A stretch of 64,000 bases of DNA from an uncultured Alphaproteobacteria bacterium (GTDB taxonomy: Bacteria > Pseudomonadota > Alphaproteobacteria > Thalassobaculales > Thalassobaculaceae): contig CALMRI010000043.1 of assembly GCA_937776645.1 (NCBI GenBank), positions 1-64,000 of the forward strand, written 5' to 3'. The notes below the pieces were generated by a model. That model had not been told where the DNA came from. It ran no database searches and worked only from the letters and a program-made list of their open reading frames with translations. Every line of letters begins with the position of its first letter. The first letter of the stretch is position 1. Shown piece after piece: positions 6,664 through 23,891 of this stretch. Made by a program: the position numbers and the translations under genes.

Positions 6664-6911
6664 TAACGAACACATACCGGCCGCCGAGGCAATCGCACCG
6701 AGCGACTTGCCGCCTATCAGGGCGATGACTCTATTTTCGAACAAAATTACGCAGAAAACATCGAACGCGACTGCCTTAAAGCCCGGATTACGGCACGGTA
6801 TCCGCTACTCGATACAACCCGACGCGCTCCGGCGTTGTTGGGCCGCGGATGCGATGGCATTCTCGACTCAGCGGCGCGTCGGCGTCGCGGCAGTCCAGAG
6901 AGGGCCGAGTC

Positions 6912-7340
6912 ATGAAGTTCAAGCGTGTCGAGCATGTTGCAATCGCCGTCAAAAGCATGGAAAAAATGCGGGACATCTTCGAGAACAAGCTCGGGATTCC
7001 CCTGGAATACGAAGAAGACTTCCCGCGTTACGATACCAAAATTGCCATGTATCCGATCGGCGAAACCTATCTTGAGGTGCTGGAATCCGGCAGTCCCGAC
7101 AGCGAAACCTCGAAATGGATCGACGAGCATGGCGAAGGTCTGTTCCATATCTGCCTGGAGGTCGAAGATATCGACGGCGCCCTAATCGAGTTGAAAGAAA
7201 AGGGCGTCAAGCTGATCGACGAAACGCCACGCATCGGCCATGGCGGCTCGCGCATCGCGTTCATCGATCCCGAGGCGACCGGTAATCTGCTGATCGAGTT
7301 GGCGGAAATTCCGGCTGGCGCCCACCACGCCCCGGCTTAA
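6912..7340 (+). CDS. VOC-family protein, methylmalonyl-CoA epimerase-like
   Basis: 142 residues starting MKFKRVEHVAIAVKSMEKMR. Two beta-alpha-beta-beta-beta modules are visible. Candidate metal ligands are the N-terminal His of the VEHVAIAV motif, the E of YLEVLE near residue 57, the His in GLFHICLEVEDI near 78, and the Glu of NLLIELAE near 130. The GSRIAFIDPEATGNLLIEL ending is characteristic of methylmalonyl-CoA epimerase and close glyoxalase-fold relatives. It therefore either epimerises a 2-substituted acyl-CoA or does related chemistry. It lies 78 bp upstream of the D-2-hydroxyacid dehydrogenase gene. No methylmalonyl-CoA mutase is present in the window to support the classic role. Confidence 0.8.
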   Translation: MKFKRVEHVAIAVKSMEKMRDIFENKLGIPLEYEEDFPRYDTKIAMYPIGETYLEVLESGSPDSETSKWIDEHGEGLFHICLEVEDIDGALIELKEKGVKLIDETPRIGHGGSRIAFIDPEATGNLLIELAEIPAGAHHAPA

Positions 7341-7418: not shown

Positions 7419-8423
7419 ATGCGCATTCTCATCACCGACCGTCACACCTCCGGCGACGAGCATATCGAACAGGACGCGGTAGGTCCGGATATCGAGCTGG
7501 AATTTTTTGACCACCACGATCAGGTCACCGACGAGGCCTGGGCGCGCGCCGATGGCGTCGTCACCTATCGCGGCACAGCGGCAGTGATGGCGGCTCTGCC
7601 AAAAATGCAACGGGCCCGGATCGTGGTGCGCGGTGGAGTCGGGTTCGACGGATTGGATCTAAAGACACTTGGCGAGCGAAGCATCGCCGTCTGCACGGTG
7701 CCGGACTATGGAACGACCGAGGTCGCCGACCATGCGATCGCCCTGATGCTCTCGCTGCGACGCGGCCTCGACCGTTATGACGGACGCATGCGCCAGGACC
7801 CCAAGGGCCTTTGGCGTTACCTTGAGAGCCCGTGTATCGACCGACTGCGAGGTCGCACTTTCGGCGTCTTTGGCTTGGGCAGGATCGGCCTTGCGGCGGC
7901 CCGGCGGGCCAGCGGTTTCGACATGAATGTGGCGTTCTACGACCCGCACCTTCCGGACGGCGTCGATTTGTCCACCGGTTACAAGCGCGTCACAAGCGCC
8001 GAGGAACTGTTCGAGACCGCCGATACAATAAGCATTCACTCCCCCCATACCGACGAGACACGGGGCGCGGTCAACGGCAATCTACTCGGTCGGATGAAAC
8101 CCGGCGGGATCGTCATCAACACGGCGCGCGGCCCGATCGTCGATCTGGACGCCTTATACGAGGCATTGAAGGCCGGATGCCCGGCCGGTGCGGCGCTCGA
8201 CGTATTGCCGGTGGAGCCGGCGGATACCGAGCACCCCCTGATAAAAGCCTATATGAACCGCGAGGATTGGCTTGAGGGTCGGCTAATGATCACCCCGCAC
8301 GCGGCGTTCTATAGCCCACCGGGCCTACACGATTTACGCTCCAAGGCGGTCGCGACGGTGGCCCAGAGACTGCGTGACGGCACCACCCGGAACTGCCAGA
8401 ACCTCCACTATCTTGTGGAGTAA
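7419..8423 (+). CDS. D-isomer-specific 2-hydroxyacid dehydrogenase (NAD-binding)
   Basis: 334 residues. The catalytic-domain segment GVVTYRGTAAVMA and the family arginine in RIVVRGGVGFDGLDL are present. The NAD-binding motif is GRTFGVFGLGRIGLAAARRA near residue 145, followed by NTARGPIVDLDALYEAL near 230. The histidine near the C-terminus lies in ITPHAAFYSP, where the acid/base His is expected. The overall arrangement is closest to C-terminal-binding-protein/phosphoglycerate-dehydrogenase relatives. It would reduce a 2-oxoacid or oxidise a D-2-hydroxyacid. It follows the VOC gene and precedes a decayed alcohol dehydrogenase on the same strand, so the three may once have formed a transcription unit. 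Confidence 0.87.
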   Translation: MRILITDRHTSGDEHIEQDAVGPDIELEFFDHHDQVTDEAWARADGVVTYRGTAAVMAALPKMQRARIVVRGGVGFDGLDLKTLGERSIAVCTVPDYGTTEVADHAIALMLSLRRGLDRYDGRMRQDPKGLWRYLESPCIDRLRGRTFGVFGLGRIGLAAARRASGFDMNVAFYDPHLPDGVDLSTGYKRVTSAEELFETADTISIHSPHTDETRGAVNGNLLGRMKPGGIVINTARGPIVDLDALYEALKAGCPAGAALDVLPVEPADTEHPLIKAYMNREDWLEGRLMITPHAAFYSPPGLHDLRSKAVATVAQRLRDGTTRNCQNLHYLVE

Positions 8424-8482
8424 CCAACTAGGAAATCACTAGAAACCCCATACCCAGACACGCCCGAGTGGAGAGCCGGCCC

Positions 8483-9299
8483 ATGGGCACTATGCGCAGT
8501 TATCAGATCGCCAAGTTCGGCGGCGCGGTTTCCGAAGCCATCCTCGACATCCCGGAACCACATGGTACCGAGGTGCTGATCAAGGTCACCCATGCCGGTG
8601 TTTGTCACTCGGATCTGCATATCGCCGACGGTTTCTACGATCTAGGTGCATGCGCCAAGCTGACCCTTGGGGGCCGGGGTATCAACCTGCCTCACACCAT
8701 GGGCCATGAAGTGCTGGGAACCGTCATCAAGGCCGGGCCGGATGCCGCCGAGGCGCCGAGGCGCCGGTCGGGGCTTCCCGGCTGGTGCATCCTTGGGTCG
8801 GCTGCATGGAATGTTCCGAATGTCAGCGCGGCCGCGAGAACTTTTGTGTGAAGGCGCAGTCAGTCGGCGTCTTCCGGCCCGGTGACTATGCCGAGTATAT
8901 GCTAGTCCCGCATCCAAAATTCTTGGTCAATGCCGACGGTATCGACCCCGCCGTCGCCACGCCCTATGCCTGCTCCAGCGTTACCGTATACAACGCGCTG
9001 AAGAAGGCGCTGCCGGAGGGCGATGATGAATGGCTGGGGATCATGGGTTGCGGCGGCCTCGGCCTTGGCGCTGTGACCATCGCCAAGGCGTTGGGCGTGA
9101 AAAATATCGTCTCCTGCGACATCAACGATGCAAAGCTCCAGGCGGCGCGGGACAGCGGCGCGGCGGGGACGGTGAACCTGAAGGCAGCCGACGCACATCA
9201 GCAGCTGCGCAGCGTCACCGGCGGCGGGCCGAAGTCGGAGGAACCCTGGATGATCTGCGCAACGGCAAGATCGTCGGTCGCGTAGTGTTGACGAATTGA
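8483..9299 (+). pseudogene. zinc-dependent alcohol dehydrogenase, broken by an 8-bp tandem duplication and an internal deletion
   Basis: The N-terminal frame runs from MGTMRSYQIAKFGG through VTHAGVCHSDLHIADGF and GHEVLGTVIKAG. It is then thrown out of frame where GCCGAGGC is present twice in tandem (about 8744-8763). Removing one copy restores the reading into HPWVGCMECSECQRGRENFC, the structural-zinc region, and on through GIMGCGGLGLGAVTIAKALG. After SVTGGGPKSE the frame again fails. The very next bases encode, in another frame, GTLDDLRNGKIVGRVVLTN, the normal extreme C-terminus of this family. Roughly 80-100 residues of the coenzyme-binding domain are missing. This is a clear pseudogene with two independent lesions. 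Confidence 0.92.
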
Positions 9300-9328: not shown

Positions 9329-10930
9329 CTAAACTGGGGCCAACTGTTCCGCCATCCGCCGCAACTCGGCCTTCTGGATCTTGGTGCCGTTCGGGCTCGG
9401 TGTGCTTGGAAAGGCATCTATCGGGATGACCCGGACCGGCACCTTGAAGCCGGCCAAGGATTGCCGGCAATGATCAATCAGCGCCGCCTCGTCGATTACC
9501 GCGCCGGCCTCTAGGATAACAAAAGCCACCGGCCTGTTGCCGCGAGCGGTGGTGATAGCGACGGTCTGGGCGTCGGCGACGGTTTGGTGCGCGCATAGAT
9601 GGGTCTCGATCTCCAGCGGATTGACTAGAAACCCACCCAGTCGCAGCACGTCTCCCATACGCCCAAGATAGGTGAAGGCACCGTCCGCCTGTATCGTCCC
9701 CAGGTCACCGGTCTTGAAATACCCATCCTCGGTCATCGCCTTGGCCGTCGCCTCGGCGTTTCCGTAATAACCGGCGAAAAGGTTCGGGGTCCAAATCTCC
9801 AATTCCCCCTCCCGGTCTTCGCCCAACACCTCGCCGGAATCCGGATCGCGGATCCGAACCTTGGCGTCCCTACAGACCGGCACGCCGCCGCCCACGGTGC
9901 GAATTCCCTCCGGGTCGTCCATCCGGCGTAACGAAAAGAACGAGAAGACCTCACTCATGCCAAACGGGCCGAGTAGCGGAAAGCCGCGCTGGTAGGCGGT
10001 GACATAAAACTCAGCAAGCGCCGAATTAAAGGTGGCATAGGGGCAGAACCGCAACGCTGGATAAGGTTTTTCGGCCCCGCCGGTCAACCTGTCCCCCTCG
10101 GTGAGAAGCCGGCTGAACATATCATCGCCGCCGGCGACATGAGTGACCGTGTGCCGCAACATCAACGCGGCAGTTTCGCTTGCCTCAAACATCACCGGAA
10201 TGACCGTTGGCGCGCCGGCGCGCAACGTCGCCAATAGATAGATAAACCCGAACACCCCGCAGAATGGCAAGGATTGCAGCACCATCGTACCGGGATTCCA
10301 AAGTTGCAACATCCGCGCCACATCGCAGGCATGACGCACCACCTGCTGCTGGTTATGGAGGACGAATTTCGGCAGGCTGGTGGTTCCGGAGGTCATGAAG
10401 ATTACGCAGCCACTATCCGGGCTACCCAGACCACTGTCCATCGGTTCGGCCGCCGCCAATTCAGCGTATTGAGTGACCCGCAAGCCTCCCGTCAGCACCG
10501 GTTCGCCGCCAACCTGAACCGCGCCGGACAGTCCCGCCAACAATGCCGGATCGACTTCGTTTAAGATCTCCATGTGATCAGCCCGCCCGAGGTTCGGCAC
10601 GAAAGCGAGGACCTTGGGCCGCGAGCGCCGCAGGACATCTTCGATCTCGGTCCGGCGATAGCGTGTGTTCATTCCCACCCCAATCGCTCCCAACCGGGCG
10701 CAAGCACCGTAGAGACAGAGATAGGCCCTGAGGTTGGGCAGCCAGAGCCCGACGCGATCGCCCGGCTCGACGCCTAAGTTCCGGAGCCCGGACGCCACCC
10801 GCCAGACTTCCTTATCCAGATCCGCATAGCTCAGATCACCATCAGGGCAGCGGATCAGTGTGTCTCCAGCCGTCTCCGATGCATGGCTTAAAAGTTCGGA
10901 AATTGTCCGCATGCTCTGATCCTGCTCCAT
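9329..10930 (-). CDS. AMP-dependent acyl-CoA synthetase/ligase
   Basis: About 533 residues from ATG at 10930. A TTG at 10945 that overlaps the upstream stop, and an ATG at 10912 with a better AGGA sequence, are alternatives. The AMP-binding signature IFMTSGTTSLPKFVLHNQQ lies near residue 170. The A5-A8 region reads GPFGMSEVFSFFSLRR, then TGDLGTIQADGAFTYLGRMG and DVLRLGGFLVNPLEIETHLC, and the catalytic lysine region is PNGTKIQKAELRRMAE at the C-terminus. It activates a carboxylic acid as acyl-AMP and then acyl-CoA. Sitting directly after a MaoC-type hydratase, it probably feeds a dedicated acyl-CoA route. Benzoate-, cyclohexane- or carnitine-type substrates cannot be told apart here. Confidence 0.87.
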   Translation of the reverse strand: MEQDQSMRTISELLSHASETAGDTLIRCPDGDLSYADLDKEVWRVASGLRNLGVEPGDRVGLWLPNLRAYLCLYGACARLGAIGVGMNTRYRRTEIEDVLRRSRPKVLAFVPNLGRADHMEILNEVDPALLAGLSGAVQVGGEPVLTGGLRVTQYAELAAAEPMDSGLGSPDSGCVIFMTSGTTSLPKFVLHNQQQVVRHACDVARMLQLWNPGTMVLQSLPFCGVFGFIYLLATLRAGAPTVIPVMFEASETAALMLRHTVTHVAGGDDMFSRLLTEGDRLTGGAEKPYPALRFCPYATFNSALAEFYVTAYQRGFPLLGPFGMSEVFSFFSLRRMDDPEGIRTVGGGVPVCRDAKVRIRDPDSGEVLGEDREGELEIWTPNLFAGYYGNAEATAKAMTEDGYFKTGDLGTIQADGAFTYLGRMGDVLRLGGFLVNPLEIETHLCAHQTVADAQTVAITTARGNRPVAFVILEAGAVIDEAALIDHCRQSLAGFKVPVRVIPIDAFPSTPSPNGTKIQKAELRRMAEQLAPV

Positions 10931-10941
10931 AGTCAAACCGA

Positions 10942-11763
10942 TCAATAGGTCAGCGCATCGACACGAAGCTCGGCGGCGAGCTTACCCTCGGCATTGATCG
11001 CGCGCAGCAATTCCGGCCCGCCTGTAATTTGCCCGTCGGTATTCGGGCTGTCGTTTTTCGGGATGCCCCAAAGCGTCACGGTGTCGTCCCAATAAACTGG
11101 TCGGGCGAACCGGGCGGTCACATCGAATGTTCGGGGCGCCCGATCCCGGGCCAGGGCGCCCATCATCCAGATCATCGTTTGAATACCTTGCGAAACCGGC
11201 GCCCGATAGCCATAGCGGCTGGCGAAGTCCGGCTCGAAATGGATGAGATTGCCGACATCCTCGGAGAACGCCATCACATCCTCCGGGCGCACGGTCTTGT
11301 CGTTCAGCAAAGCCAACCCCTGTCGTGGATCTTCATCCTTTCGCCGGGTTCCCCGACTGGCACCCATTTTCGCAGGGTCGGTCTTTAGGCGGAACATCTC
11401 TGCCGTCACCGCGATATCGCCATCGGCCCGGACAAACTCGAATTTTTGGACAATCCGGCGACCGCGCGGATCCGCCTCGTCTGAGGCGATCCAACCACGC
11501 TGGACCAAGGGCTCACCGATCATCGCTGGTTGGTGCAAGCCGAAACGTTGGGCCATATGAACCATGCCATCGAGCACCACGCCTCCGGCGGTCATCGCCT
11601 TGAAGCAATCTTGGCCAAACAATCCAGTCTCGGCGGTATCGCCGTACAACTCCGGGTCCACACCGCAGGCCCGCAGCTTGCGTGCCTGATACTCCGCCGT
11701 ACGCTGGGCGATACGCTCGGGAAAGACGGCCAGGGCTTCCTCGGCGCAGTCACCTTGATCCAT
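10942..11763 (-). CDS. MaoC-like hotdog-fold dehydratase/hydratase
   Basis: 273 residues with two hotdog-like halves. The N-terminal half has FKAMTAGGVVLDGMVHMAQR and a degenerate dehydratase domain. The C-terminal half contains FEPDFASRYGYRAPVSQGIQ, where a 2-enoyl-CoA hydratase typically carries its D-x-x-x-A-x-x-x-G hydratase motif. The protein ends VTLWGIPKNDSP and AELRVDALTY. It likely hydrates or dehydrates an acyl-CoA made by the ligase encoded immediately downstream; stop and potential start are essentially touching, which indicates translational coupling. Upstream is the spermidine-synthase-like gene, 111 bp away on the same strand. The specific substrate is unknown. Confidence 0.78.
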   Translation of the reverse strand: MDQGDCAEEALAVFPERIAQRTAEYQARKLRACGVDPELYGDTAETGLFGQDCFKAMTAGGVVLDGMVHMAQRFGLHQPAMIGEPLVQRGWIASDEADPRGRRIVQKFEFVRADGDIAVTAEMFRLKTDPAKMGASRGTRRKDEDPRQGLALLNDKTVRPEDVMAFSEDVGNLIHFEPDFASRYGYRAPVSQGIQTMIWMMGALARDRAPRTFDVTARFARPVYWDDTVTLWGIPKNDSPNTDGQITGGPELLRAINAEGKLAAELRVDALTY

Positions 11764-11874: not shown

Positions 11875-12807
11875 TTACGCCTCCAACCACGTCCGTTGCC
11901 AAAGCGGCAGGACGAAGGACGCCTGGTGAATATCCGCATCGTAATGCCGGCCTTGATGCGCCCGGAACGAATGACGTAGGGACACGCCATCACGGCCATA
12001 AAGGAAAAACCCAAAATCAGCGCCCGGATAGAACGGTGCATTGGCCCGGTAAATTTCGATATGGGGCAACAAGCCGGTGCGCTGCATGACCGACACCAAG
12101 TTCTCGCCTCCGGCACTCTCTTCCTGAAGGAAATGGCCGCCGCTCACCGAAAGAAACAGGCTGTCTGAATCGAGAATCACGCCGGTTGGCGAGACTAACT
12201 CCACCAATTCAGTGAAAAAACCCTCGGTAAACAGATTGGCCGATGGCCCCACCGGCTCGGTCAGATCGAGAACGATAAGGTCATAGGTCCCGCCAGCTTG
12301 ACGTGCCCGGCTGACGAAGCCCGCAGCGTCCTCGACGGCCAGTGTGACCCTTGGGTCATCGTAGTTTCCCTGGATCCCGAGATAGTGGTTGGAAAGCGCG
12401 ATCACCCGCCTGTCTATCTCGACCATGGTGACCGAGGTCACGAAGTCATGGACAAGCGCCTCGCGCAGAATGCCCCCATCACCGCCGCCAATGATCAACA
12501 CCGAGCTGTCCCGCCGTTCCCGTCCCAATAGCGGCACATGCACGGCCATCTCATGATAGATAAATTCGTCGGCCTGACAGGCCTGTACATAACCATCAAG
12601 CACAAGAATGCGGCCGAAATCATCATGCTCCAAGATCTCGATGGTCTGGTACGGGCTCTCTTCGCGATGCAGCACCCGCGCTTCAAGCGACAGCGCGATG
12701 CCCAGTTCGCCGGCTCTCTCACGCCACCAGAATTTTACCGCGTGCGGCGATAACCCAGTCCCTGAAGCCTCTTCAGCCCCGGCTTCCCCATCAATCCAAA
12801 TTTCCAC
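11875..12807 (-). CDS. spermidine synthase-like aminopropyltransferase/methyltransferase-fold protein
   Basis: 310 residues from a GTG at 12805-12807, giving VEIWIDGEAG. An ATG at 12861 would overlap the upstream SDR by 53 bp. Family hallmarks are clear: SPYQTIEILEHDDFGRILVL, QADEFIYHEMAVHVPLL, the SAM-type glycine loop VLIIGGGDGGILREALVH near residue 105, and VEIDRRVI after it. LDLTEPVGPSANLFTEGFF matches the substrate-gate region. Classical SpeE transfers aminopropyl from decarboxylated SAM to putrescine. The context is an acyl-CoA/molybdoenzyme cluster with no speD in sight, so a polyamine role is uncertain and another nucleophile is possible. Confidence 0.83.
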   Translation of the reverse strand: MEIWIDGEAGAEEASGTGLSPHAVKFWWRERAGELGIALSLEARVLHREESPYQTIEILEHDDFGRILVLDGYVQACQADEFIYHEMAVHVPLLGRERRDSSVLIIGGGDGGILREALVHDFVTSVTMVEIDRRVIALSNHYLGIQGNYDDPRVTLAVEDAAGFVSRARQAGGTYDLIVLDLTEPVGPSANLFTEGFFTELVELVSPTGVILDSDSLFLSVSGGHFLQEESAGGENLVSVMQRTGLLPHIEIYRANAPFYPGADFGFFLYGRDGVSLRHSFRAHQGRHYDADIHQASFVLPLWQRTWLEA

Positions 12808-12808
12808 G

Positions 12809-13594
12809 TCAGTCAATATCGACAGCGGCCCCGGCCGCTCCGTAGCCGGTATAACCGCCATCGATTGGAATCACCGTGCCGTTCACATAACTGGCCAGCG
12901 GAGAGGCCAGGAACATCATGACATTACCAATCTCCTCGGGCGTCGCCAATCGCCCCATCGGGGTGCGGCGCTGTATCGCCTTCTCGTCCACCCGGCCGCT
13001 GGCGATCAGGGTTTTCACCATCGGTGTCGCTACATAGGCGGGCGAGACCGCGTTGACCCGCACCCCATACTGGCCCCATTCGCTGGCCAGCGACTTGGTT
13101 ACTCCCGCCACCCCATGCTTCGAGGCAGTATAGGCGTTGCGGTAAGGCAGGCCGACCAGGCCGGCAATCGAGCTGATATTGACGATCGCCCCCTCTCCCT
13201 GCTCCAGCATATCCGCCGCTACCGCCCGGCAGGTCAGATAAGTACCGGTCAGATTGATGTCGATAATCCGCTGCCAATGCGCCACCGATTGCTCCAGGGT
13301 CGGCGCGAAGGTATCGGAAACGCCGGCGCAGTTGATCAATACATCGATCCGGCCGAGCCCGGCCCTGGCGGTCGCAACGATATTGGCAACCGATTCCTCA
13401 TTCGAAACATCGCCCGGCGCCGCGACATGCCGGTTACCTAGATCTCGCGCCACCTCGCGGGTTTTGCCCTCGTCGATATCGGAAATCGCAACCGCCGCAC
13501 CCTGGGCAGCGAACAATGTTGCGCTGGCCCGGCCGATGCCGCTCGCCCCGCCGGTGATCAGTACGCCCTTACCGGAAAAATCCAAACCACTCAT
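12809..13594 (-). CDS. short-chain dehydrogenase/reductase
   Basis: 261 residues with TGGASGIGRASATLFAAQGA near residue 14, the NAG-type motif as INCAGVSD near 88, catalytic serine in NISSIAGLVG, and the YTASKHGVAG active-site Tyr/Lys near 155. The PIDGGYTGYG ending is the usual SDR C-terminus. It is an NAD(P)H-dependent alcohol/ketone oxidoreductase. The start lies three bases after the stop of the bisC-like gene, and its stop touches the spermidine-synthase-like coding region, so the three are surely co-transcribed. The basic or acidic residue choice after the second strand (AISDIDEG) suggests NAD(H) preference, because an Asp is placed there. Confidence 0.92.
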   Translation of the reverse strand: MSGLDFSGKGVLITGGASGIGRASATLFAAQGAAVAISDIDEGKTREVARDLGNRHVAAPGDVSNEESVANIVATARAGLGRIDVLINCAGVSDTFAPTLEQSVAHWQRIIDINLTGTYLTCRAVAADMLEQGEGAIVNISSIAGLVGLPYRNAYTASKHGVAGVTKSLASEWGQYGVRVNAVSPAYVATPMVKTLIASGRVDEKAIQRRTPMGRLATPEEIGNVMMFLASPLASYVNGTVIPIDGGYTGYGAAGAAVDID

Positions 13595-13597
13595 GTC

Positions 13598-15931
13598 CTA
13601 GGCTCCCTGCTCGATGATCTTTGGTGGTTGGTGCGCGGTGACTTCTGGCAACGGGTCGGTGAATTTCTCGACCTCGACCAGCGCCGTATGCGAGGTCGGC
13701 CCCTGGGCCAGCCGCGAGGTACCGGTATCCCGGGTCAACACATTCGGATTGCCATGCTTGCAGACCGAACCGATCTGACCTGGTTCCTGCGGGTCATACC
13801 AGGCGCCGGTGGAGAGCTGAATGACGCCGGGCATCACCGCATCGCTCAAGATCACCCCGACCAAACAGGCGCCGCGATCGTTGAACACCTTGGCAACATC
13901 GCCAGCACCGATGCCCCGCGCCACGGCATCAGCCCGGTTCATCGTCATCGGCTCCCGCCCCTGGATCTTGCTGCCCCGGCTGACCGAACCGCTATCAAGC
14001 TGACTGTGCAGACGAGTGCTCGGTTGGTTCGAGATCATGTGCAACGGAAAGCGCGCGGCCTCCGGCGCTCCCAACCACTCAAACGGCTCTTGCCAGGACG
14101 GATGGCCCGGACAGTCGTCATAGCCAAAGCCGTCGATCACCTCCGAGAAGATCTCAATCCGCCCGGACGGCGTGGTTAAGGGATTGGCGACCGGGTCGGC
14201 CCGGAACGCCTCCAGCATGACCATCGGGCCATCAGGCTGCAGCACCTCGTGCGGCCCCTCCTGCCAGAACGTGTCGAAATCCGGCAACGCGAACCCGGCG
14301 CCGCCAGCCCTTTGCCGGGCCTGGTCCCAGAGATGACGCAGCCAGTCGTTCTCATCGCGGCCCTCGGTAAAGGTCTCACGGCACCCCAGACGCTCGGCCA
14401 GATCCGCGAAGATGGTATAATCGTCACGGCTTTCTCCCACCGGATCGATCGCCTTGTGCATTGGCGAGATGGTCTGTTCCCAATGCGCCATCATCAAATC
14501 ATTACGCTCCAGCGCCGAGGTCGCCGGGAAAACGATGTCAGCGTGGCGCGCCAGGGCGGTCCACCAGATTTCGTTGACGATGACGCATTCCGGGCGGCGA
14601 AAGGCCTCGACCAGACGGTTGAGGTCCTGGTGGTGGTGAAACGGATTACCGCCGGCCCAATAGACCAGCTTGGCCTCTGGATAGGTCCGGGTAGCGCCGT
14701 CATACTCATAGGTTCCGCCGGGATCGAGCAGCATGTCGGCGATGCGGGCGACCGGAATAAAGTCCTTAATCGGGTTTTCGCCCTGCGGCAAGGCGGGCCA
14801 CTTGAACAGCTTAACCGAATTACCAATGCCGTTTTCAGAGCCATAGCCGATGCCAAAGCCACCGCCGGCCAGGCCGATCTGCCCGACCAACGCGGCCAGC
14901 ACCACGGTCAACCAGATCGGTTGCTCGCCATGGTCGCCGCGCTGCACCCCCCAAGCGGTCAAGATCATGGTCCGGCAATCGGCCATGCGGCGCGCCAAAT
15001 CAACGATCGTTGCCGCGGCGATGCCGGTTATCCCCGCGGCCCAAGCAGCATCCTTCGGCTGACCATCATTGTCACCCATTAGATAGGGTCGGAACTTCTC
15101 CAACCCAACCGTATGGCGGGCGATGAAATCCTTATCGTAAAGATCCTCCGCCACCAAGGTGTGGGCCAGCGCCAGCATCAGGGCGGTATCGGTGTTCGGC
15201 CTGACGGCGATCCATTCCGGCGCGAACATATGCGCCAAATCGTTGCGCAGCGGACTGATATTCACGAACTCGACGCCGGCTTCGTAGCAGCTCTGCAACG
15301 CCTCATGCAGCGTGTGACGGCCGACCCCGCCTGACGTCACCTGGGCATTCTTGTGCGGTAGACCGCCAAACATAACCAACAACTCGCAATCCGAAGCGAT
15401 ATCCGGCCACTGGGTAGCGCCATCCATTACCACTTCGCGCATTTCGGCGACCACATGCTTCAGGGTCACCTCGGCCGCCGCGTGGCTATAGCTGTTCTGG
15501 TGGCGGACATAGCCGCCGGCGGCATTCATGAACCGGTGCACCTGGCTCTGGGCATGATGAAATCGACCGGAAGAGCCCCAACCATAGGAGCCCGCGAAGA
15601 TCGAGCCGTTGCCGAATTCGCTCCGCACCCGTTCGATCTGCCCGGCAGCCAGATCCAGCGCCGTTTCCCAGGACACCGCAACGAATGGCTCAGCCCCACG
15701 CCCGGCCGGATCGGCAGCTATACCGTTCTCCAAAAAGCTTTTGCGAACCATCGGGCGGCGCACTCGCACCTGATCAACCACCGCATCGACGATGCCCGGG
15801 CCGATAATCGCCGGCGACGGGTCACGCTCGTAATCATGAACCGCCTTCAACCGACCGTTCTCGACCTCGGCGTAATAGGTGCCCCAATGGGTGGAGGTGG
15901 GGGTTAGGCGGGGTTCTGCTTCGATGACCAT
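13598..15931 (-). CDS. molybdopterin-dependent oxidoreductase of the DMSO-reductase family (biotin-sulfoxide/TMAO-reductase branch)
   Basis: 777 residues and intact. The segment FAGSYGWGSSGRFHHAQSQV near residue 115 contains the serine position used as molybdenum ligand in the BisC/TorA/DorA branch, followed by MNAAGGYVRHQNSYSHAAAE. There is no N-terminal 4Fe-4S cluster motif and no twin-arginine signal, which points to a cytoplasmic single-subunit enzyme like BisC rather than a periplasmic TorA. The C-terminal molybdopterin dinucleotide-binding domain is seen in HMISNQPSTRLHSQLDSGSV and STGAWYDPQE. It reduces an S- or N-oxide, or does reverse chemistry. It starts a minus-strand cluster and is divergent from the decarboxylase-like pair. 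Confidence 0.9.
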   Translation of the reverse strand: MVIEAEPRLTPTSTHWGTYYAEVENGRLKAVHDYERDPSPAIIGPGIVDAVVDQVRVRRPMVRKSFLENGIAADPAGRGAEPFVAVSWETALDLAAGQIERVRSEFGNGSIFAGSYGWGSSGRFHHAQSQVHRFMNAAGGYVRHQNSYSHAAAEVTLKHVVAEMREVVMDGATQWPDIASDCELLVMFGGLPHKNAQVTSGGVGRHTLHEALQSCYEAGVEFVNISPLRNDLAHMFAPEWIAVRPNTDTALMLALAHTLVAEDLYDKDFIARHTVGLEKFRPYLMGDNDGQPKDAAWAAGITGIAAATIVDLARRMADCRTMILTAWGVQRGDHGEQPIWLTVVLAALVGQIGLAGGGFGIGYGSENGIGNSVKLFKWPALPQGENPIKDFIPVARIADMLLDPGGTYEYDGATRTYPEAKLVYWAGGNPFHHHQDLNRLVEAFRRPECVIVNEIWWTALARHADIVFPATSALERNDLMMAHWEQTISPMHKAIDPVGESRDDYTIFADLAERLGCRETFTEGRDENDWLRHLWDQARQRAGGAGFALPDFDTFWQEGPHEVLQPDGPMVMLEAFRADPVANPLTTPSGRIEIFSEVIDGFGYDDCPGHPSWQEPFEWLGAPEAARFPLHMISNQPSTRLHSQLDSGSVSRGSKIQGREPMTMNRADAVARGIGAGDVAKVFNDRGACLVGVILSDAVMPGVIQLSTGAWYDPQEPGQIGSVCKHGNPNVLTRDTGTSRLAQGPTSHTALVEVEKFTDPLPEVTAHQPPKIIEQGA

Positions 15932-16151
15932 GGGATGGCTCCGGCGCTGCTACAGCAACAGGTCGAGAGTTTTACAACGCCTTGCGGGGCGCGTCACCTG
16001 TCGAGCGCGCTGCTTTGGCTCCCGGCTCCTCTATCGGCGCTTCTCCTCCGACATTTCCACATTCCCGATGCTTCGCGCCCTACCCTCGCCCGATCCGCCG
16101 TGCTACGAGCCTTGTGCTGAATTTCATTGCCAAGCCACACGGGAGCATTGC

Positions 16152-16697
16152 ATGGCCGATCCATGGACCGTCGAGGCGCATCGCCTCTTCAAAAAGCACG
16201 GAATCAAGACCGTCGGCTATGTGCCCGACGCCGGGCTGACCGACTTGATCAATGCCTGTGACGCCGATAACGACATCAAGGCCGTCGTCATGACCACCGA
16301 GGAGGAAGGCATTGGCCTGTCGTCCGGAGCTTGGCTTGGCGGCGAAAAGGCGGCGATACTGATGCAGAGTAGCGGCGTCGGCAATACCGTCAATGCGATC
16401 GCCTCGATCGTCTCGTCCTGTCAGTTTCCGCTATTCATGATCGTCACCATGCGCGGCCAATACGGCGAGTCCAATCCCTGGCAGATCCCGATGGGGCAGG
16501 CCACCGCCCCAGTGCTGCGCAGCGTTGGGGTTAGGGTCTACGAGGTCGATACGGAAGAAGACGCCGTCGGCGCGATCGAGAACGGGCTAAAGATGGCCTT
16601 CGTCTCTAATGCCGCCGTCGCAGTGCTGATCGGCCAGAAGCTGATCGGCGCCAAATCCTTTATCGCTGATGTCGCCGAGGAGGTGACCCATGTCTGA
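16152..16697 (+). CDS. sulfopyruvate decarboxylase-like alpha subunit (TPP enzyme, PYR domain)
   Basis: 181 residues from ATG at 16152 (MADPWTVEAHRLFKKHGIKT). It comprises a single pyrimidine-binding domain of a thiamine-diphosphate enzyme: VVMTTEEEGIGLSSGAWLGG carries the activating glutamate near residue 50, followed by MQSSGVGNTVNAIASIV and MIVTMRGQYGESNPWQIPMG. The split into separate PYR and PP subunits and the short length match archaeal ComD/bacterial sulfopyruvate decarboxylase and phosphonopyruvate decarboxylase relatives. It overlaps the beta-subunit gene by 8 bp. The 220 bp to the divergent bisC-like gene presumably contain both promoters. Confidence 0.85.
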   Translation: MADPWTVEAHRLFKKHGIKTVGYVPDAGLTDLINACDADNDIKAVVMTTEEEGIGLSSGAWLGGEKAAILMQSSGVGNTVNAIASIVSSCQFPLFMIVTMRGQYGESNPWQIPMGQATAPVLRSVGVRVYEVDTEEDAVGAIENGLKMAFVSNAAVAVLIGQKLIGAKSFIADVAEEVTHV

Positions 16698-17289
16698 GCT
16701 AAAACTCGAGCGCGCCGATGTGATGGCCAAATTGATGACGGTGCGCGGCGATGCGTTAATCATCGCCGGCCTTGGCTCTCCGGTCTGGGACGTCGCCTCG
16801 TCCGACCATAAGCCAGAGAACTTTTACCTCTGGGGGGGTATGGGCTGCGCCATCAGCATGGGGCTGGGCTGCGCCCTGGCGCAACCCGACCGCAAGGTTT
16901 GGGTCATCACCGGTGACGGCGAGGCGCTGATGGGGGTTGGCTCCTTCGCCACCGTCGCCAGCCAGCGACCGGCTAATCTAGCGGTCGTCGTGCTCGATAA
17001 CGAGCATTACGGCGAGACCGGCATGCAGCGTACCAGCACATCACATGGCGCCGATCTGGCGGTAATGGCGGGCGGCGCCGGCATTCCAACGACCCTTGCC
17101 ATCACCGACATGGCCGGCGTCGATGGGCTGACCGCGGCCTTGACATCCGGGCCGCTGCCACTGGTCGCAGTGGTCAAGATCGCCGCGTCGAAGCCTAATC
17201 TGGTGCTGCCGGCACGAGACGGCGTTTACCTAAAGAACCGGTTTCGCCAAGCGGTCCTGGGCGCCACCGACGCGATGCATGCGAGCTAA
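16690..17289 (+). CDS. sulfopyruvate decarboxylase-like beta subunit (TPP enzyme, PP domain)
   Basis: 199 residues. The diphosphate-binding motif GDGEALMGVGSFATVASQRP near residue 75, followed by LAVVVLDNEHYGETGMQ, is the canonical GDG-to-NN type Mg-TPP loop (here ending DN). YLWGGMGCAISMGLGCALAQ precedes it. Together with the alpha subunit it would decarboxylate a 3-carbon 2-oxoacid with a sulfonate, phosphonate or other acidic group to the aldehyde. The family is well known from coenzyme M synthesis and sulfolactate breakdown, but no sulfoacetaldehyde acetyltransferase (xsc) or coenzyme-M genes are in view. Next downstream on the same strand is an MFS transporter gene. Confidence 0.87.
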   Translation: MSELKLERADVMAKLMTVRGDALIIAGLGSPVWDVASSDHKPENFYLWGGMGCAISMGLGCALAQPDRKVWVITGDGEALMGVGSFATVASQRPANLAVVVLDNEHYGETGMQRTSTSHGADLAVMAGGAGIPTTLAITDMAGVDGLTAALTSGPLPLVAVVKIAASKPNLVLPARDGVYLKNRFRQAVLGATDAMHAS

Positions 17290-17484
17290 GACGCGCCCCA
17301 GGTCGATTAAGGGTCCAGCCTCTAGCCGGCCCGGAGCGCCTCTTCAGGTTGAATAACCCGCCCGCTTGCGAATAGAACGATCTATCCATCCAGGATAGGG
17401 ATCGCCCAGCTTGGGATGGACGATACCGTCCATCCGTCACCGACACAGAGAGTTCCTGGTGAACCGCTCCCATCCGAACCAGCC

Positions 17485-18693
17485 ATGAGCCCGAAGCGCA
17501 GCACCACGGTGATTGTGCTTGGCTTCCTGATCATGGTCCAGGCAACCGGCGCCCTGGCCGGGTTCTGGCTTCCGGCGATCGCGCCTGAAATCGGCGATGG
17601 GCTAGCGCTCAGCCCGGCGTTGATCGGCTATCAGGTGCTGATCCAGTACGTCTTCGCCATGCTGTCGAGCTTGATGTCCGGCGGCGTGGTCGCCCGGTAC
17701 GGGGCGTGGCGAGCCTCGCAGCTGGCGTTACTGATCTTCGCCGCCGCACATCTGATGTTCCTAACCGGGTCACTGGTGATGATCGGACTGGGCTCTGTGG
17801 TTCTCGGCTGCGGCTATGGCATGGTCACGCCGCCGGCATCGCATTTACTGAACAGGATCGTCACGCCGACGAACCGGAATTTCATCTTCTCCATTCGCTT
17901 CACCGGTGTCCCGCTCGGCGGCATCGTCGCCGGACTGGCCGGGCCCGCCGTGGCCTTGGCGTTTGGCTGGCGTGAAAGCGTCCTGGTGGTGGTGGCGGTC
18001 GCGCTCACTCTGGCCATCGCGATGCAGCCACTGCGGGCTCGCTGGGACGGCGACCGCTCTGGCGCGGCCCGGCTGCTACGCAACCCGGTGGCCGACCTGA
18101 AGATGGTGTGGAATATCGCGCCATTGCGTTGGGTAGCGCTGATGGGGCTGTGCATGGGCGCGGTCCAGACGACCCTGACCACCTATACCGTCACCATGCT
18201 GGTCGAGGATCTCGGATACACCCTGATCGCCGCCGGGATCGGTCTGTCAGCCATCCAATGCGCCAGCGTGTTCGGCCGGGTGGCCTGGGGCTGGCTTGCC
18301 GATCGGGTCGGCAGCGGCCTTGCAGTCTCCGGCGTGGTTGCGCTGATCGCGGCGTTTTGCGCCGGTGTAACCTGCCTGCTGACACCGCAATGGCCGGGGC
18401 TGGCGGTCTATGGGCTTTGTTTCGCGTTTGGTCTGGTCGGCATGGGGTGGAATGGCGTCTTCGCCAGCGAGATCGCCCGCCTAGCGCCGGTTGGTGCGGT
18501 CGGCAGCGCCACCGGCGCCTGCATGTTCATTACGTTTTCCGGTGTGTTCCTTGGACCGGTGGTCTTCGTCATCATGTATGACCTGACCGGCGCCTATACC
18601 ACCACCTATTCAACCACCGCAGCGATTGCTCTGATGGCGCTGTTCTGCGTGATCCAGGCGATCCGGTCCCTGCGGCCATCCGATAGCCCCTAG
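17485..18693 (+). CDS. MFS transporter
   Basis: 402 residues from ATG at 17485; an ATG at 17416 in the same frame would add a hydrophilic, proline-rich 23 residues that look non-native. Twelve hydrophobic segments can be counted. The first is TTVIVLGFLIMVQATGALAG, the loop 2-3 motif is a weak SLMSGGVVARYGAWRASQL, and loop 8-9 is GRVAWGWLADRVGSGL. It resembles the oxalate/formate and monocarboxylate MFS group. It follows the decarboxylase-like pair by about 200 bp and may import their substrate or export a product. No signal links it firmly to that pathway, so substrate is open. Confidence 0.87.
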   Translation: MSPKRSTTVIVLGFLIMVQATGALAGFWLPAIAPEIGDGLALSPALIGYQVLIQYVFAMLSSLMSGGVVARYGAWRASQLALLIFAAAHLMFLTGSLVMIGLGSVVLGCGYGMVTPPASHLLNRIVTPTNRNFIFSIRFTGVPLGGIVAGLAGPAVALAFGWRESVLVVVAVALTLAIAMQPLRARWDGDRSGAARLLRNPVADLKMVWNIAPLRWVALMGLCMGAVQTTLTTYTVTMLVEDLGYTLIAAGIGLSAIQCASVFGRVAWGWLADRVGSGLAVSGVVALIAAFCAGVTCLLTPQWPGLAVYGLCFAFGLVGMGWNGVFASEIARLAPVGAVGSATGACMFITFSGVFLGPVVFVIMYDLTGAYTTTYSTTAAIALMALFCVIQAIRSLRPSDSP

Positions 18694-18743: not shown

Positions 18744-19004
18744 TCAGCCGGCGTCGAGCTTGGGGATAAAGAATACCTCGGTCGAGGCGTTCACTTCCTG
18801 AAGATAAGCGTCGTCATAGATCATACCGTCGATCGACACCGCCGTCTCTTCCTCCAGATGCTCCCGGATCCCAGGGAAAAGATCTTCCAAGGCCCGGAGG
18901 ATGTCGCGCACTCTACTCGCCTCGACCTCGAATTTGGTCTCGCCGCCGGTGTATTGGCGGCTGAGGCTATTTGCGAGCACCACCCGGACCTTGGGTTTGA
19001 TCAT
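18744..19004 (-). CDS. MoaD/ThiS-family beta-grasp protein
   Basis: 86 residues from ATG at 19004 (MIKPKVRVVLANSLSRQYTG). The core VRDILRALEDLFPGIREHLE and FFIPKLDAG correspond to the MoaD/ThiS ubiquitin-like fold. Known family members end in Gly-Gly, which is adenylated and turned into a thiocarboxylate. This one ends Ala-Gly, so only the terminal glycine is conserved. It is 10 bp downstream of the xanthine-dehydrogenase-type large subunit, suggesting a role in sulfur or molybdopterin supply for that enzyme. Whether it works as a sulfur carrier without the penultimate glycine is unclear. Confidence 0.78.
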   Translation of the reverse strand: MIKPKVRVVLANSLSRQYTGGETKFEVEASRVRDILRALEDLFPGIREHLEEETAVSIDGMIYDDAYLQEVNASTEVFFIPKLDAG

Positions 19005-19014
19005 GACTGGAAGG

Positions 19015-21300
19015 TCACTCCGCTGCTTGCAGTAACTTCGCCGCATCGAGAGCCGCTAGCACCCGCGGCGGTGACATCGGCAGGCTTTGCAACCGCACAC
19101 CCGTGGCGCCCTCGATCGCGTTGGCGATCGCGGCCATTGGCGGGCAAATGTTCACCTCTCCGACGCCCTTAACGCCGTATTTGTGGTTCGGGTTCGGTTT
19201 CTCTACCATCACCGCCTCGACCATCGGCACGTCCGAGGCCACGGGCACCCGATAGTCAAGGAACCCGGCGTTCTGCAGCCGGCCGTCCTCACCATAGATG
19301 TACTCTTCATTCAGCGCCCAACCGATACCCTGGACGACGCCGCCCTGGATCTGCCCCTCGACATAGGACGGGTGAATGGCCCGACCGACATCCTGGGACG
19401 CGGTATAGCGAAGGATGGTCACCTTACCGGTCTCCGGATCGACCTCGACATCCACGACATGTGTCGCCAGGCCCGGAGACACACCGCCGGCATTGACCTG
19501 CCCAGCGGCGCCGATCGGGCCGCCAGTCTGAGCCGCCTTGGCGGTGATATCCCCCAGTGACAAGGGTTCGAAATCTCCGACATTACTGCTAGCCGGCTTG
19601 GCAAAGCCATCTTCCCAGATGACGCCATCGACATCGACATCCCAGGTCAGAGCCGCCCGCTTGCGCAACTCATCGATGCAAGCATCCGCCGCCTTGATCA
19701 CCGCTGCGCCAGTTGCCAGGGTGACCCGACTACCGCCTGTAACATGAGTGTAACCAACATTCGCCGTATCGGTGACTATCGCCCGGACCTGATCGTAATC
19801 AATGCCCAGGGTCTCGGCGGCCATTAGGGCCATCGAGGCGCGCGAGCCGCCGACATCCACACTGCCGGTCGCGACCACGGCGGTCCCGTCGGCGTTGAGA
19901 TGCAGAGTGGCACTGGATTCACCGCCGCCATTGAACCAATAACCGGACGCAACACCGCGACCTTGGTTAGGTCCAAGCGAATGCTTCATGTGATCATGGG
20001 CCTCAAGCACCTCCACAGTCTCGATAAAACCAAAGCTTGGATGCGGCGAGCCCATGATGGTCTTGCTGCCCTCGACGGCACCGTTCTTACGCCGAAACTC
20101 CAGCGGACCCATGCCGATCTTCTTAGCCAGGATATCGAGCACGCTTTCGACACCAAAAGCCGAAATCGGTGATCCCGGCGCCCGATAGGCAGCCGCCTTC
20201 GGTCGGTTACTCACCACGTCGTAGCCCACGGCCTTCTGATTCTCAATGTCATAGGGCGCAAAGCAGCACAGGCAGCAGTTGATCACCGGAGAGCCAGGGA
20301 AGGCGCCGGCCTGGATGTAGTAGCTGCCCTCGGCAGCGGTGATCTTGCCACCCTTGGTGCAGCCGATTTTGATGGTCATGGCCCCACCTGAGGTCGGACC
20401 AGAGGCCTTGAACACCTCGTCACGGGTCATCACCGCACGCACCGCCTGGCCGGCCTTCTTGGAAAGCATCAGCGCCAGGGGCTCGAGATAGACAACGGTC
20501 TTGCCACCAAAACCACCACCGATCTCGGCCGGATAGACCCGCAGGTCAGCCGCCCGCATACCGGTCAACTTGGCGGTCAGCGCGCGAACCACGAAATGGC
20601 CCTGGCTGGAGCTCCAGATTTCGCCTTGGCCGTCCTCATTATAACGGGCGGTGCAGGCGTGCGGCTCGATATAGCCTTGGTGGACTGCGGCGGTGTCGAA
20701 TTCCATTTCGACAATCTCGTCAGCGGCAGCGAAACCGACCTCGACATCGCCGATGCCAAAGTTTACCACCTTGGAGACATTCGACGGCTTAGTCGGCGCC
20801 GGCTCGACACCCCGGGTAATCATGTCCTCGTGCAACAGCGGCGCATTGGGCGCAGCGGCTTTCATCACGTCGATCACGTGCGGCAACACCTCGAAATCGA
20901 TTTTTATCAGGCGCATTGCCTCATCAGCGATCTCAGGCGTGGTCGCGGCGACGGCGGCGATCGCGTGCCCCTCATAGAGCGCCTTCTCGCGCGCCATGAT
21001 GTTCCGGGTCACGTGGTGGAAATTTACCGCCACCCGTTCCGGACCGACATAGGCAAAAGCATGGTCAGGAAGGTCGGCGGCGGTAACCACCGCCTTGACC
21101 CCGCTCAGCGCTTCAGCAGCCGAGGTATCAATGGATTTGATGCGCGCATGGGCGTGCGGGCTGCGTAACACCTTGCCGACCAACATGTTCGGAAAGACAT
21201 AGTCGGCCCCGTATTTGGCCCGACCGGTAACCTTGTCGACCCCATCCGGTCGAATCGGACGGGTCCCAATCCATTTGAATTGCTTGCTGCCATGATCCAT
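19015..21300 (-). CDS. xanthine dehydrogenase-family molybdopterin-binding large subunit (CoxL/XdhB-type), orphan
   Basis: 761 residues, intact. The N-terminal region ADYVFPNMLVGKVLRSPHAH is typical of aldehyde oxidase/xanthine dehydrogenase large subunits. Moco motifs follow: PAEIGGGFGGKTVVYLEPLA near residue 260, AAYRAPGSPISAFGVESVLD near 370, and the active-site glutamate region YGVKGVGEVNICPPMAAIAN near the C-terminus. Such enzymes hydroxylate aromatic N-heterocycles, aldehydes or thioester aromatics. The partner FAD-binding medium subunit and 2Fe-2S small subunit are not adjacent; only a MoaD-like gene follows. The 560 bp upstream hold no gene. It may use partners encoded elsewhere or represent a family that works differently. 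Confidence 0.88.
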   Translation of the reverse strand: MDHGSKQFKWIGTRPIRPDGVDKVTGRAKYGADYVFPNMLVGKVLRSPHAHARIKSIDTSAAEALSGVKAVVTAADLPDHAFAYVGPERVAVNFHHVTRNIMAREKALYEGHAIAAVAATTPEIADEAMRLIKIDFEVLPHVIDVMKAAAPNAPLLHEDMITRGVEPAPTKPSNVSKVVNFGIGDVEVGFAAADEIVEMEFDTAAVHQGYIEPHACTARYNEDGQGEIWSSSQGHFVVRALTAKLTGMRAADLRVYPAEIGGGFGGKTVVYLEPLALMLSKKAGQAVRAVMTRDEVFKASGPTSGGAMTIKIGCTKGGKITAAEGSYYIQAGAFPGSPVINCCLCCFAPYDIENQKAVGYDVVSNRPKAAAYRAPGSPISAFGVESVLDILAKKIGMGPLEFRRKNGAVEGSKTIMGSPHPSFGFIETVEVLEAHDHMKHSLGPNQGRGVASGYWFNGGGESSATLHLNADGTAVVATGSVDVGGSRASMALMAAETLGIDYDQVRAIVTDTANVGYTHVTGGSRVTLATGAAVIKAADACIDELRKRAALTWDVDVDGVIWEDGFAKPASSNVGDFEPLSLGDITAKAAQTGGPIGAAGQVNAGGVSPGLATHVVDVEVDPETGKVTILRYTASQDVGRAIHPSYVEGQIQGGVVQGIGWALNEEYIYGEDGRLQNAGFLDYRVPVASDVPMVEAVMVEKPNPNHKYGVKGVGEVNICPPMAAIANAIEGATGVRLQSLPMSPPRVLAALDAAKLLQAAE

Positions 21301-22387: not shown

Positions 22388-23676
22388 TTAATTATTGTTG
22401 GACTGTCGCATAACCTCAGCCCATCGACGATAGAAACCGTAAAACAGGGTCTCGCTGTCCCAGTCCGGATTAGAGGAAACCGGCTGGGCGCCGAGGCTGG
22501 CGGTCGCGGCGTCGGCGCCCTCGATCATCACGCTTCGCCCTCGATCCATTTCGTTCCATTGCGCCAGCCGTCCGTTGGCGCCGCGCTGCACATCCTCCAA
22601 CGCCGCCATGTCGTCGGGTGTCGCCATGCCGGTGACCATAAAGAAATCCTCGAACTTGCGCAGCCGCGCCGCCCGGGCCTGCCGGCTCTCGCCCCTCGGC
22701 GCGATGCAATAGGTCCGCACCTCGGTCCGGTCGACGGCATGCGGGATCAATACCCGGATCTGGGTCGAGGATTGATCCATCAGAAACACATTGGGGAACA
22801 GGAAAAGATTACGGCCCTTGCGCAACATCCAATCGACCTTGCTTGCCTCGTATTGTTGGTTCAACCAGTCGAGATTTTCGGCCAGCGGGGCAACTTCCGG
22901 GTTACCGCGCTCGGCCCAAAGCATCATGTGGCCGCCGCCGAGATCATAAACCCCGGTCGGCACCGAGCCGGTGATCCGAGCCGCCTCGGTCTTGCGCATC
23001 GTGCCGTTGTCGCCCAACGCCTCACGCTTGGCCATGGCGCGGGCAAACACCCGGTGCACGGTCGATACGTGATAGCCGTCGACACCGTTTTCCGCCTGCA
23101 GCTTCCAATTGCCGTTAATCATATAGGACTGACTGCCGGGCACGATCTCCATCCCCTCGGGGGATTGATCGGCCAAGAGGTCGATGAACGGGCGCGATTC
23201 GCCCAAGGCCTCGGCCAGAGGCGGCACATCGGCGGATAGCGAGACATAAACGAAACCCTTATAGCTTTCGACCTTCGGCACCGGCTCTAGCGAGAAGCGC
23301 CCCCGGTCAACGCCTTCCGGCCAACCGCCCGCCTCATTCTTGATCTTAGTGCACGCACCCGAGGTGTCGTAGCACCAGCCGTGAAAGCGGCACATGATCG
23401 TTTTCATCGTTCCGCGGCGTGCCCGGGTTAGCACCGCGCCGCGATGCGCGCAGGCGTCGATGAAGCCGCCGATACCGCCATCATCCTGGCGAATCAGGAA
23501 TATCGGCTGCCGACCGGCCTGGGTCGCGTAATAGTCGCCATGGGAAGGAATCTGGCTCTCGTGGCAAGCATAAATCCAGTTCCCTTCGAAGATCGCAGCC
23601 AGTTCGGCGTTATAGACTGCGGATCCGTATAGGTATCGCGGGCGACCCGAAAAACACCATTGCTCTCGTCCACCAT
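22388..23676 (-). pseudogene. Rieske 2Fe-2S ring-hydroxylating dioxygenase alpha subunit, one frameshift
   Basis: From ATG at 23674-23676 the frame gives MVDESNGVFRVARDTYTDP, then breaks near 23614-23625. Past that point another frame runs uninterrupted through FEGNWIYACHESQIPSHGDY to the stop at 22388. The Rieske motif is complete (CAHRG at its start, CRFHGW at its end, C-x-H-x17-C-x2-H). The mononuclear iron site region reads ENGVDGYHVSTVHR, and LFLFPNVFLMDQSSTQIRV follows. It resembles the benzoate/2-halobenzoate dioxygenase group that makes cis-diols. Only about 20 residues lie before the break; an internal start could in principle rescue part of the protein, but the beta gene is also broken. 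Confidence 0.9.
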
Positions 23677-23891
23677 CTCAGGCGCCGGGCGGGGCGTTCA
23701 ATATTCATGTCTTACCTCCACGATCCGCTCTTCACTCCAGCTTACCCTGCCCTCGGCGGCAACGGGAGTCTGGTTCGCGCGCCAGCCATCCCGGTTGAGA
23801 AGCGCGGTGCTGCATGGCATACCTACCGGCAGCAACTCCCAAGGGCCTTGTCGCCCCGGATCACCGACCTCAGTCAGAATTGGACGGCACC

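Follow-up and report, generated by a model that had tools for sequence, protein, structure and literature searches.

What joins a molybdoenzyme of the dimethyl sulfoxide (DMSO) reductase family to a two-subunit decarboxylase that depends on thiamine pyrophosphate (TPP)? The question arises from contig CALMRI010000043.1 of an uncultured member of the Thalassobaculaceae (Alphaproteobacteria), of which we analyzed a stretch of 64,000 nucleotides, hereafter the window. Here a gene for a BisC-like molybdoenzyme, followed by an SDR dehydrogenase gene, stands divergent from genes for a ComDE-like decarboxylase and a carrier of the major facilitator superfamily (MFS). An initial annotation of the DNA had suggested that these genes, together with their neighbors on the minus strand, degrade an organosulfur or related compound via an S-oxide and an aldehyde. 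We find that BisC(-SDR) with ComDE-MFS is the core of a real, conserved and family-specific module. We read it, with a probability of roughly 0.4, as a system for the uptake and conversion of a small organic acid with an oxide group on sulfur (or nitrogen).

Conservation of the core and turnover of its flanks

The search for ComD covered 61 relatives, among them the 36 genomes examined of the window's GTDB family. These 36 were also searched for BisC and the MFS carrier, and ComE was sought across 84,980 species, each represented by one genome. Among the family members are Nisaea denitrificans and N. nitritireducens, which NCBI places in the Thalassobaculaceae, and several metagenome-assembled genomes labelled SAR116. 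Window-type ComD was detected in 30 of the 36 family genomes and family-type BisC in 28. In 26 of these 28 the two genes lie within 3 kb of each other, always divergently, and the divergent orientation was seen in 24/24 measured loci holding both genes, so that the pairing exceeds chance. A search for conserved co-localisation, the check that the initial annotation had named for itself, therefore came out in its favor. In 25 of the 30 family genomes with ComD the MFS carrier gene lies no more than 7 kb from it, and the module is present in all five genomes examined from Nisaea, a cultured marine genus (or the corresponding genus group in GTDB). The exceptions are these: G010 and G019 (genus g9) retain BisC-SDR, with ComD absent or located elsewhere (L220, L221), G011 and G020 retain ComDE without BisC, and in G001 the contig ends at the module site. 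Neither gene was found in G008, G013, G021, G023 and G032, some of which are reduced or incomplete genomes. In trees built by a quick method, with support from the Shimodaira-Hasegawa-like approximate likelihood ratio test (SH-aLRT) and no bootstrap, the ComDE of the family form a single clade (SH-aLRT 95), as do its BisC proteins (SH-aLRT 100).

The genes flanking this pair differ from clade to clade. In the clade of the window and the SAR116-labelled genomes the flank holds SDR, a SpeE-like gene, an AMP-binding acyl-CoA ligase (ACS) and a hydroxyacid dehydrogenase, with MaoC in the window. The Nisaea flank is made up of one or two Methyltransf_24 genes, MaoC, a PehA-like enzyme of the sulfatase superfamily and a Zn-dependent alcohol dehydrogenase. 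At locus L046 (G005) MaoC and the sulfatase occur together and SDR has moved between ComE and the carrier. MaoC is also part of the Nisaea, G004, G005 and G015 clusters. Copies of ACS with 58% identity occupy the same place in L034-L040, and ACS is also found in L114; the hydroxyacid dehydrogenase is 82-87% identical at the same place in L035 and L037-L040 and partial in L034, and the SpeE-like gene is restricted to the window/SAR116-labelled clade. The BisC-SDR pair is kept even in genus g9, where ComDE does not adjoin it. Since the flanks are replaced between clades, the core consists of BisC(-SDR) with ComDE-MFS, while SpeE, MaoC and ACS are optional. The idea that all genes listed in the initial annotation belong to one pathway is thus not supported, the SpeE-like, ACS and MaoC genes being clade-specific extras.

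Further extras concern 2-oxoacids. Seven genomes (G004, G006, G015 and four of g12) carry, immediately 5' of BisC and on its strand, a gene for a second E1 of the 2-oxoglutarate dehydrogenase type with a length of about 900 aa. At these loci (L111, L112, L114, L117-L120) the E1 gene sits between BisC and ComD and heads the BisC operon. All seven also possess an AmaA-type amine oxidase of the DAO family, which occurs in eight genomes, G007 having it without the E1. The E1 homologues of G007, G014 and G031 share just about 41% identity with it and lie in other contexts. We rejected the view of this E1 as a relocated gene of the tricarboxylic acid cycle: the same genomes encode canonical SucA elsewhere, and the E1 of the module is an additional, diverged copy. 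A class V aminotransferase and a TauD-like gene adjoin the orthologue of the carrier in G011. The clade extras look like different ways of feeding or draining a 2-oxoacid/aldehyde step.

Of 289 genomes taken from the class, with members of the family counted, 56 encode BisC homologues, which have 38-61% identity (most 45-61%). The genus that forms the nearest outgroup belongs to another family of the class; here a 61% identical BisC is divergent from genes for an NAD(P)H/Fe-S flavoprotein and the alpha and beta subunits of a KorAB-type 2-oxoacid:ferredoxin oxidoreductase (L156:9303-14074), and L157 holds the same gene families. This arrangement, seen in one genus only, is suggestive of a link between BisC and 2-oxoacids. 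ComDE homologues of Roseomonas-type bacteria adjoin a hydroxyacid dehydrogenase, MmgE/PrpD and a recurrent family that we took as TctC-like by size and place, not by search. A gammaproteobacterial pair has ComDE beside DUF2478 and SelR/MsrB (L104:10567-11739; L058 by homology), and at L109:8551-9405 a MOSC protein is encoded 26 bp upstream of the ComDE homologue. The MOSC and MsrB neighbors are possible independent links of ComDE-like enzymes to oxide reduction or molybdenum.

The molybdoenzyme and a possible conversion route

The BisC-like protein reached 1009.1 bits against TIGR00509 (bisC_fam) over positions 2-770, narrowly missing the cut-off of 1017.55. Its Mo ligand Ser149 and Tyr116/Trp118 align with DMSO reductase and are conserved in 24 family and 52 other homologues. 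The closest solved relatives are Rhodobacter DMSO reductases (727 bits), followed by the 7l5i enzyme (663 bits), which we take to be Haemophilus MtsZ, and then by trimethylamine N-oxide (TMAO) reductases. E. coli BisC, TorZ and TorA are about equally distant from it, with 40-42% identity each. The "bisC-like" label of the initial annotation is therefore generic. The sequence contains neither an N-terminal RR motif for twin-arginine translocation (Tat) nor N-terminal Fe-S cysteines, and since there is no Tat signal the enzyme is probably cytoplasmic, as is BisC. Full-length homology, the Mo-Ser, the Tyr/Trp pair and the lack of an Fe-S subunit are shared with the type III DMSO reductase family (Rhodobacter DorA, E. 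coli BisC/TorZ/TorA, Haemophilus MtsZ). Unlike that family, the window enzyme has no Tat signal, stays just under the bisC_fam cut-off, adjoins no cytochrome or chaperone gene and has a fixed position beside ComDE.

From these data we infer the following tentative route. The MFS carrier would import an organic anion, from which the cytoplasmic molybdoenzyme would remove the oxide oxygen. Clade-specific enzymes would then bring the compound to the 2-oxoacid, which may be the task of the SDR or the 2-hydroxyacid dehydrogenase in the window and of the amine oxidase, or the class V aminotransferase near the carrier, in relatives. ComDE, judged by the chemistry of its family, would decarboxylate the 2-oxoacid non-oxidatively to an aldehyde, and SDR or alcohol dehydrogenase, plus ACS and MaoC in the window's clade, would process the product further to an alcohol, acid or acyl-CoA. 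We favor such a module because the pair stays conserved and divergent while its flanks turn over, both BisC and ComDE form supported clades in the same family, and the Mo-Ser, Tyr and Trp of DMSO reductase are retained. It is also favored by the second TPP-type E1 at the head of the BisC operon, by the MOSC, DUF2478 and SelR/MsrB neighbors of ComDE outside the family and by the rarity of Xsc described below. A further argument is that enzymes which deaminate or form oxoacids recur next to the module or its carrier, namely the DAO, the class V aminotransferase and the hydroxyacid dehydrogenase.

The scheme of the initial annotation, oxide reduction combined with aldehyde formation, has thus come through the conservation search as a proposal and not as demonstrated chemistry. 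Its organosulfur S-oxide would be one conceivable substrate. It seems unlikely on present evidence that marine bacteria of the Nisaea type possess a hitherto undescribed pathway for oxidised sulfur amino acids or hydroxyacids, for instance methionine sulfoxide, in which the Mo oxide reductase and the ComDE-like decarboxylase work one after the other and a thio-aldehyde is released. Methionine sulfoxide or its 2-oxo/2-hydroxy analogues, converted to a methional-type aldehyde, would fit best as substrate, and even this best fit is improbable. In the literature searched we found no catabolic route specific for S- or N-oxides that is built on an enzyme of the DMSO reductase family and a two-subunit TPP decarboxylase. 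If it exists, the pathway from an oxidised sulfur compound to a thio-aldehyde would be a new branch of organosulfur turnover in the sea, and this in bacteria that make dimethylsulfoniopropionate (DMSP) as well. The presence of the module in the cultured genus Nisaea makes gene-deletion tests feasible.

Several observations weigh against the uptake and conversion module. Its substrate is deduced and not observed, and BisC-SDR without adjoining ComDE (g9) as well as ComDE without BisC (G011, G020) demonstrate that neither strictly requires the other. Amine oxidase, E1, sulfatase and methyltransferases are not common to all clades. None of 20 close BisC loci outside the family (L156-L175) has ComDE beside BisC, and the MOSC and MsrB neighbors occur at only a few of some 60 loci, perhaps by chance. 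The fold of the carrier was rejected as a guide to its substrate: the 12-helix AlphaFold model (predicted local distance difference test score, pLDDT, of 89) gave best Foldseek matches to anion carriers of the glucose-6-phosphate/OPA, MCT, OxlT and DgoT types and also to VMAT and NorA, and these matches are unspecific.

The strongest alternative is that BisC-SDR represents a housekeeping oxide reductase for free methionine sulfoxide, biotin sulfoxide, DMSO or TMAO, which, in a single family's ancestor, became fixed by chance beside the catabolic unit ComDE-MFS. Every co-located case indeed falls within one GTDB family and one clade, the window genome has a single bisC_fam gene, BisC homologues of 50-61% identity elsewhere in Alphaproteobacteria lack ComDE neighbors, and in g9 and g10 one unit occurs apart from the other. 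The pair nevertheless persists despite repeated replacement of both flanks, even with the 2.7-kb E1 gene inserted between its members, and both genes are jointly missing from the five family genomes named above, some of them reduced or incomplete. A purely positional association is doubtful, while it has to be taken seriously.

Substrate candidates for the ComDE-like decarboxylase

Against the sulfopyruvate decarboxylase families ComD scored 139.8 bits (TIGR03845), 8 bits short of the cut-off of 147.95, and ComE 128.7 bits (TIGR03846), 93 bits below the cut-off of 221.5. The separate alpha and beta subunits contain TPP_enzyme_N and TPP_enzyme_C domains; ComD is a distant match to RhiE (9iz3) and ComE matches RhiF (9iz3_B). 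Two separate subunits, alpha (PYR) and beta (PP), with overlapping genes and the same domains are features that the window pair shares with the sulfopyruvate decarboxylase ComDE and the phosphonopyruvate decarboxylase RhiEF. In contrast to these systems the window subunits score below the curated cut-offs and are accompanied neither by Xsc nor by a coenzyme M context, and a paralogue owns the ComC-like partner. The motifs TEEEG, MQSSGVGN and RG-GE-NP-Q-PMG are common to all ComDE groups compared, including the ComC-linked paralogue, and therefore carry no substrate information.

Sulfolactate and taurine routes of Alphaproteobacteria employ SlcD/ComC, ComDE and the sulfoacetaldehyde acetyltransferase Xsc. 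The window resembles them in combining a ComDE-type decarboxylase with a transporter in marine bacteria and differs in that Xsc stays below cut-off in 35 of the 36 family genomes and an oxide reductase takes the place of sulfolactate dehydrogenase. Only one family genome reached the Xsc cut-off (676.4 bits); the best hit in the window's own genome had 261 bits (assembly 87% complete). The statement of the initial annotation that a standard Xsc-type sulfolactate route fails to explain the gene set is thus supported at genome scale in the 36 family genomes. In the window's own genome another ComDE (47% identical) precedes an Ldh_2 gene of the ComC family (L121:9808-12003, contig C45), an arrangement conserved in G008. 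This pair is the better candidate for a sulfopyruvate decarboxylase, though the genome has no Xsc over cut-off. Two GD_AH genes (SuyB/altronate dehydratase superfamily) lie in the genome outside the window, and their match is not specific for SuyB of the alternative sulfolactate lyase SuyAB.

If ComDE were a true sulfopyruvate decarboxylase, sulfolactate or cysteate would be converted to sulfoacetaldehyde, which would be reduced and exported as isethionate or otherwise used, with BisC unrelated. Sulfopyruvate and phosphonopyruvate decarboxylases are the nearest named families, ComD falls just 8 bits short, the motifs are shared with the ComC-linked paralogue and the habitat is marine. We nevertheless regard this explanation as quite unlikely, and ordinary sulfopyruvate dissimilation by the module as unlikely, because both subunits stay below their cut-offs, ComE by far, Xsc is found once in 36 genomes and the second ComDE stands beside a ComC-like gene; nor is there a place in it for ACS, MaoC, amine oxidase and E1. 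This suggests that annotations as "sulfopyruvate decarboxylase" in Alphaproteobacteria lacking Xsc should be tested before they are taken as sulfonate metabolism.

Paired TPP-binding subunits do not imply sulfopyruvate, since RhiEF acts on phosphonopyruvate (PMC12141560) and LumK/LumL decarboxylate a quinoxaline carboxylate in riboflavin catabolism (PMC12746152). LumKL resemble the window pair, by description and not by sequence comparison, in that two TPP-binding subunits jointly form a decarboxylase within a catabolic cluster; unlike the module, that cluster contains a P450, amidases, and Rieske and catechol dioxygenases. ComDE could accordingly act on a heteroaromatic carboxylate while BisC reduces a ring N-oxide: LumK/LumL, which are annotated as TPP-binding proteins, cooperate with an enzyme of the xanthine oxidase type and with a Rieske oxygenase (PMC12746152), and window open reading frames (ORFs) were read as an XDH-type subunit (19015-21300) and, by eye, as a Rieske oxygenase (22388-23434). 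In the tested loci of the family, the window's XDH-type gene does not accompany the module, and there is no conserved ring-cleavage set with it; a heteroaromatic substrate is very unlikely.

The window also encodes a DsyB homologue, not mentioned in the initial annotation, with 336 bits to DsyB of Nisaea denitrificans (7wdq/7wdw), an experimentally proven S-methyltransferase of 4-methylthio-2-hydroxybutyrate (MTHB; PMC10989797). The organism is thus a predicted DMSP producer. On the same strand dsyB is followed after 186 bp by a VOC protein gene (6849-7340, +) and then by the 2-hydroxyacid dehydrogenase gene, an order seen only in the window and G002; the dehydrogenase is a candidate reductase of 4-methylthio-2-oxobutyrate (MTOB). 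Because dsyB is present in 17/36 family genomes and does not track BisC/ComDE, it is a neighbor and not a member of the module, and we rejected DMSP synthesis as the module's function. That the locus serves DMSP synthesis or the metabolism of methionine-derived hydroxyacids, with MTOB or the 2-oxo form of 4-dimethylsulfonio-2-hydroxybutyrate (DMSHB) as the substrate of ComDE, is highly improbable, the least likely of the alternatives: a predicted MTOB reductase gene also adjoins Gynuella dsyGD, though no activity of that reductase was seen (PMC11306096), but dsyB was not found in the BisC-ComDE-bearing g7, g8, G012 and G006 genomes (several incomplete), other genomes with both carry it at another place or contig, and G010 has dsyB without window-type ComDE.

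Layout of the locus and accessory genes

Gene positions and family labels of the initial annotation were borne out by Pfam and NCBIfam, and all genes it named are intact, five on the minus strand (ACS, MaoC, SpeE-like, SDR, BisC-like) and three on the plus strand (ComD, ComE, MFS).

Table 1. Positions of the module genes and their neighbors in the window
Feature	Position	Strand	Pfam	Remark
DsyB homologue (MTHB S-methyltransferase, DMSP synthesis)	5599-6663	+		outside conserved module
D-2-hydroxyacid dehydrogenase	7419-8423	+	PF02826/PF00389	adjoins operon; possible oxoacid supplier
AMP-binding acyl-CoA ligase (ACS)	9329-10945	-	PF00501/PF13193	accessory
MaoC/R-hydratase-like double hot-dog protein	10942-11763	-	PF01575	accessory
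SpeE-like protein (aminopropyl- or methyltransferase fold)	11875-12861	-	PF01564/PF17284	clade-specific accessory
SDR dehydrogenase	12809-13594	-	PF13561/PF00106	near-core part
BisC-like molybdoenzyme	13598-15931	-	PF00384/PF01568/PF18364	777 aa; core part
ComD-like TPP decarboxylase alpha subunit (PYR domain)	16152-16697	+	PF02776
ComE-like beta subunit (PP domain, GDGE...N TPP motif)	16690-17289	+	PF02775
MFS carrier (MFS_1)	17416-18693	+	PF07690	core part

ComD begins with the ATG at 16152 rather than with the GTG further upstream at which the longest ORF opens. Genes on the minus side are separated by gaps or overlaps of only 3 to 111 bp, SDR following 3 bp 3' of BisC, so that this side looks like a single operon, and the tight packing on both sides resembles two divergent operons. 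About 220 bp lie between BisC and ComD. No match to a sigma-70-like promoter consensus was obtained in this region; the shared divergent promoter region claimed initially is therefore a matter of geometry. Rfam gave no riboswitch or other RNA match near the module in the window and six loci, and thus no clue to a ligand.

With 212.5 bits against TIGR00417 (cut-off 249.55) the SpeE-like protein stays under the cut-off for spermidine synthase. The motifs DLTEP and GGGDGG of the S-adenosylmethionine fold are intact and invariant, and the acceptor-side region has diverged. From clade to clade the SpeE-like gene alternates with methyltransferase genes, a hint that its product may itself be a methyltransferase. 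The model of MaoC (five-sequence alignment, mean pLDDT 75) matches HtdX, the MFE-2 hydratase and itaconyl-CoA hydratase, suggesting a double hot-dog protein of the hydratase type.

Shortly after the carrier gene lies the XDH-type large subunit ORF, labelled by reading its translation, which aligns with XDH-type proteins of other loci. A 100-aa ORF (18744-19046) was read by eye as MoaD-like and has no Pfam match. The probable Rieske oxygenase and a luciferase-like ORF (23814-24923) were likewise named from their translations, not from family searches. A Zn-dependent alcohol dehydrogenase (8468-9285, +) is split over two frames and lacks its C-terminus, either as a pseudogene or through an assembly error; intact homologues adjoin the same module in Nisaea and others.

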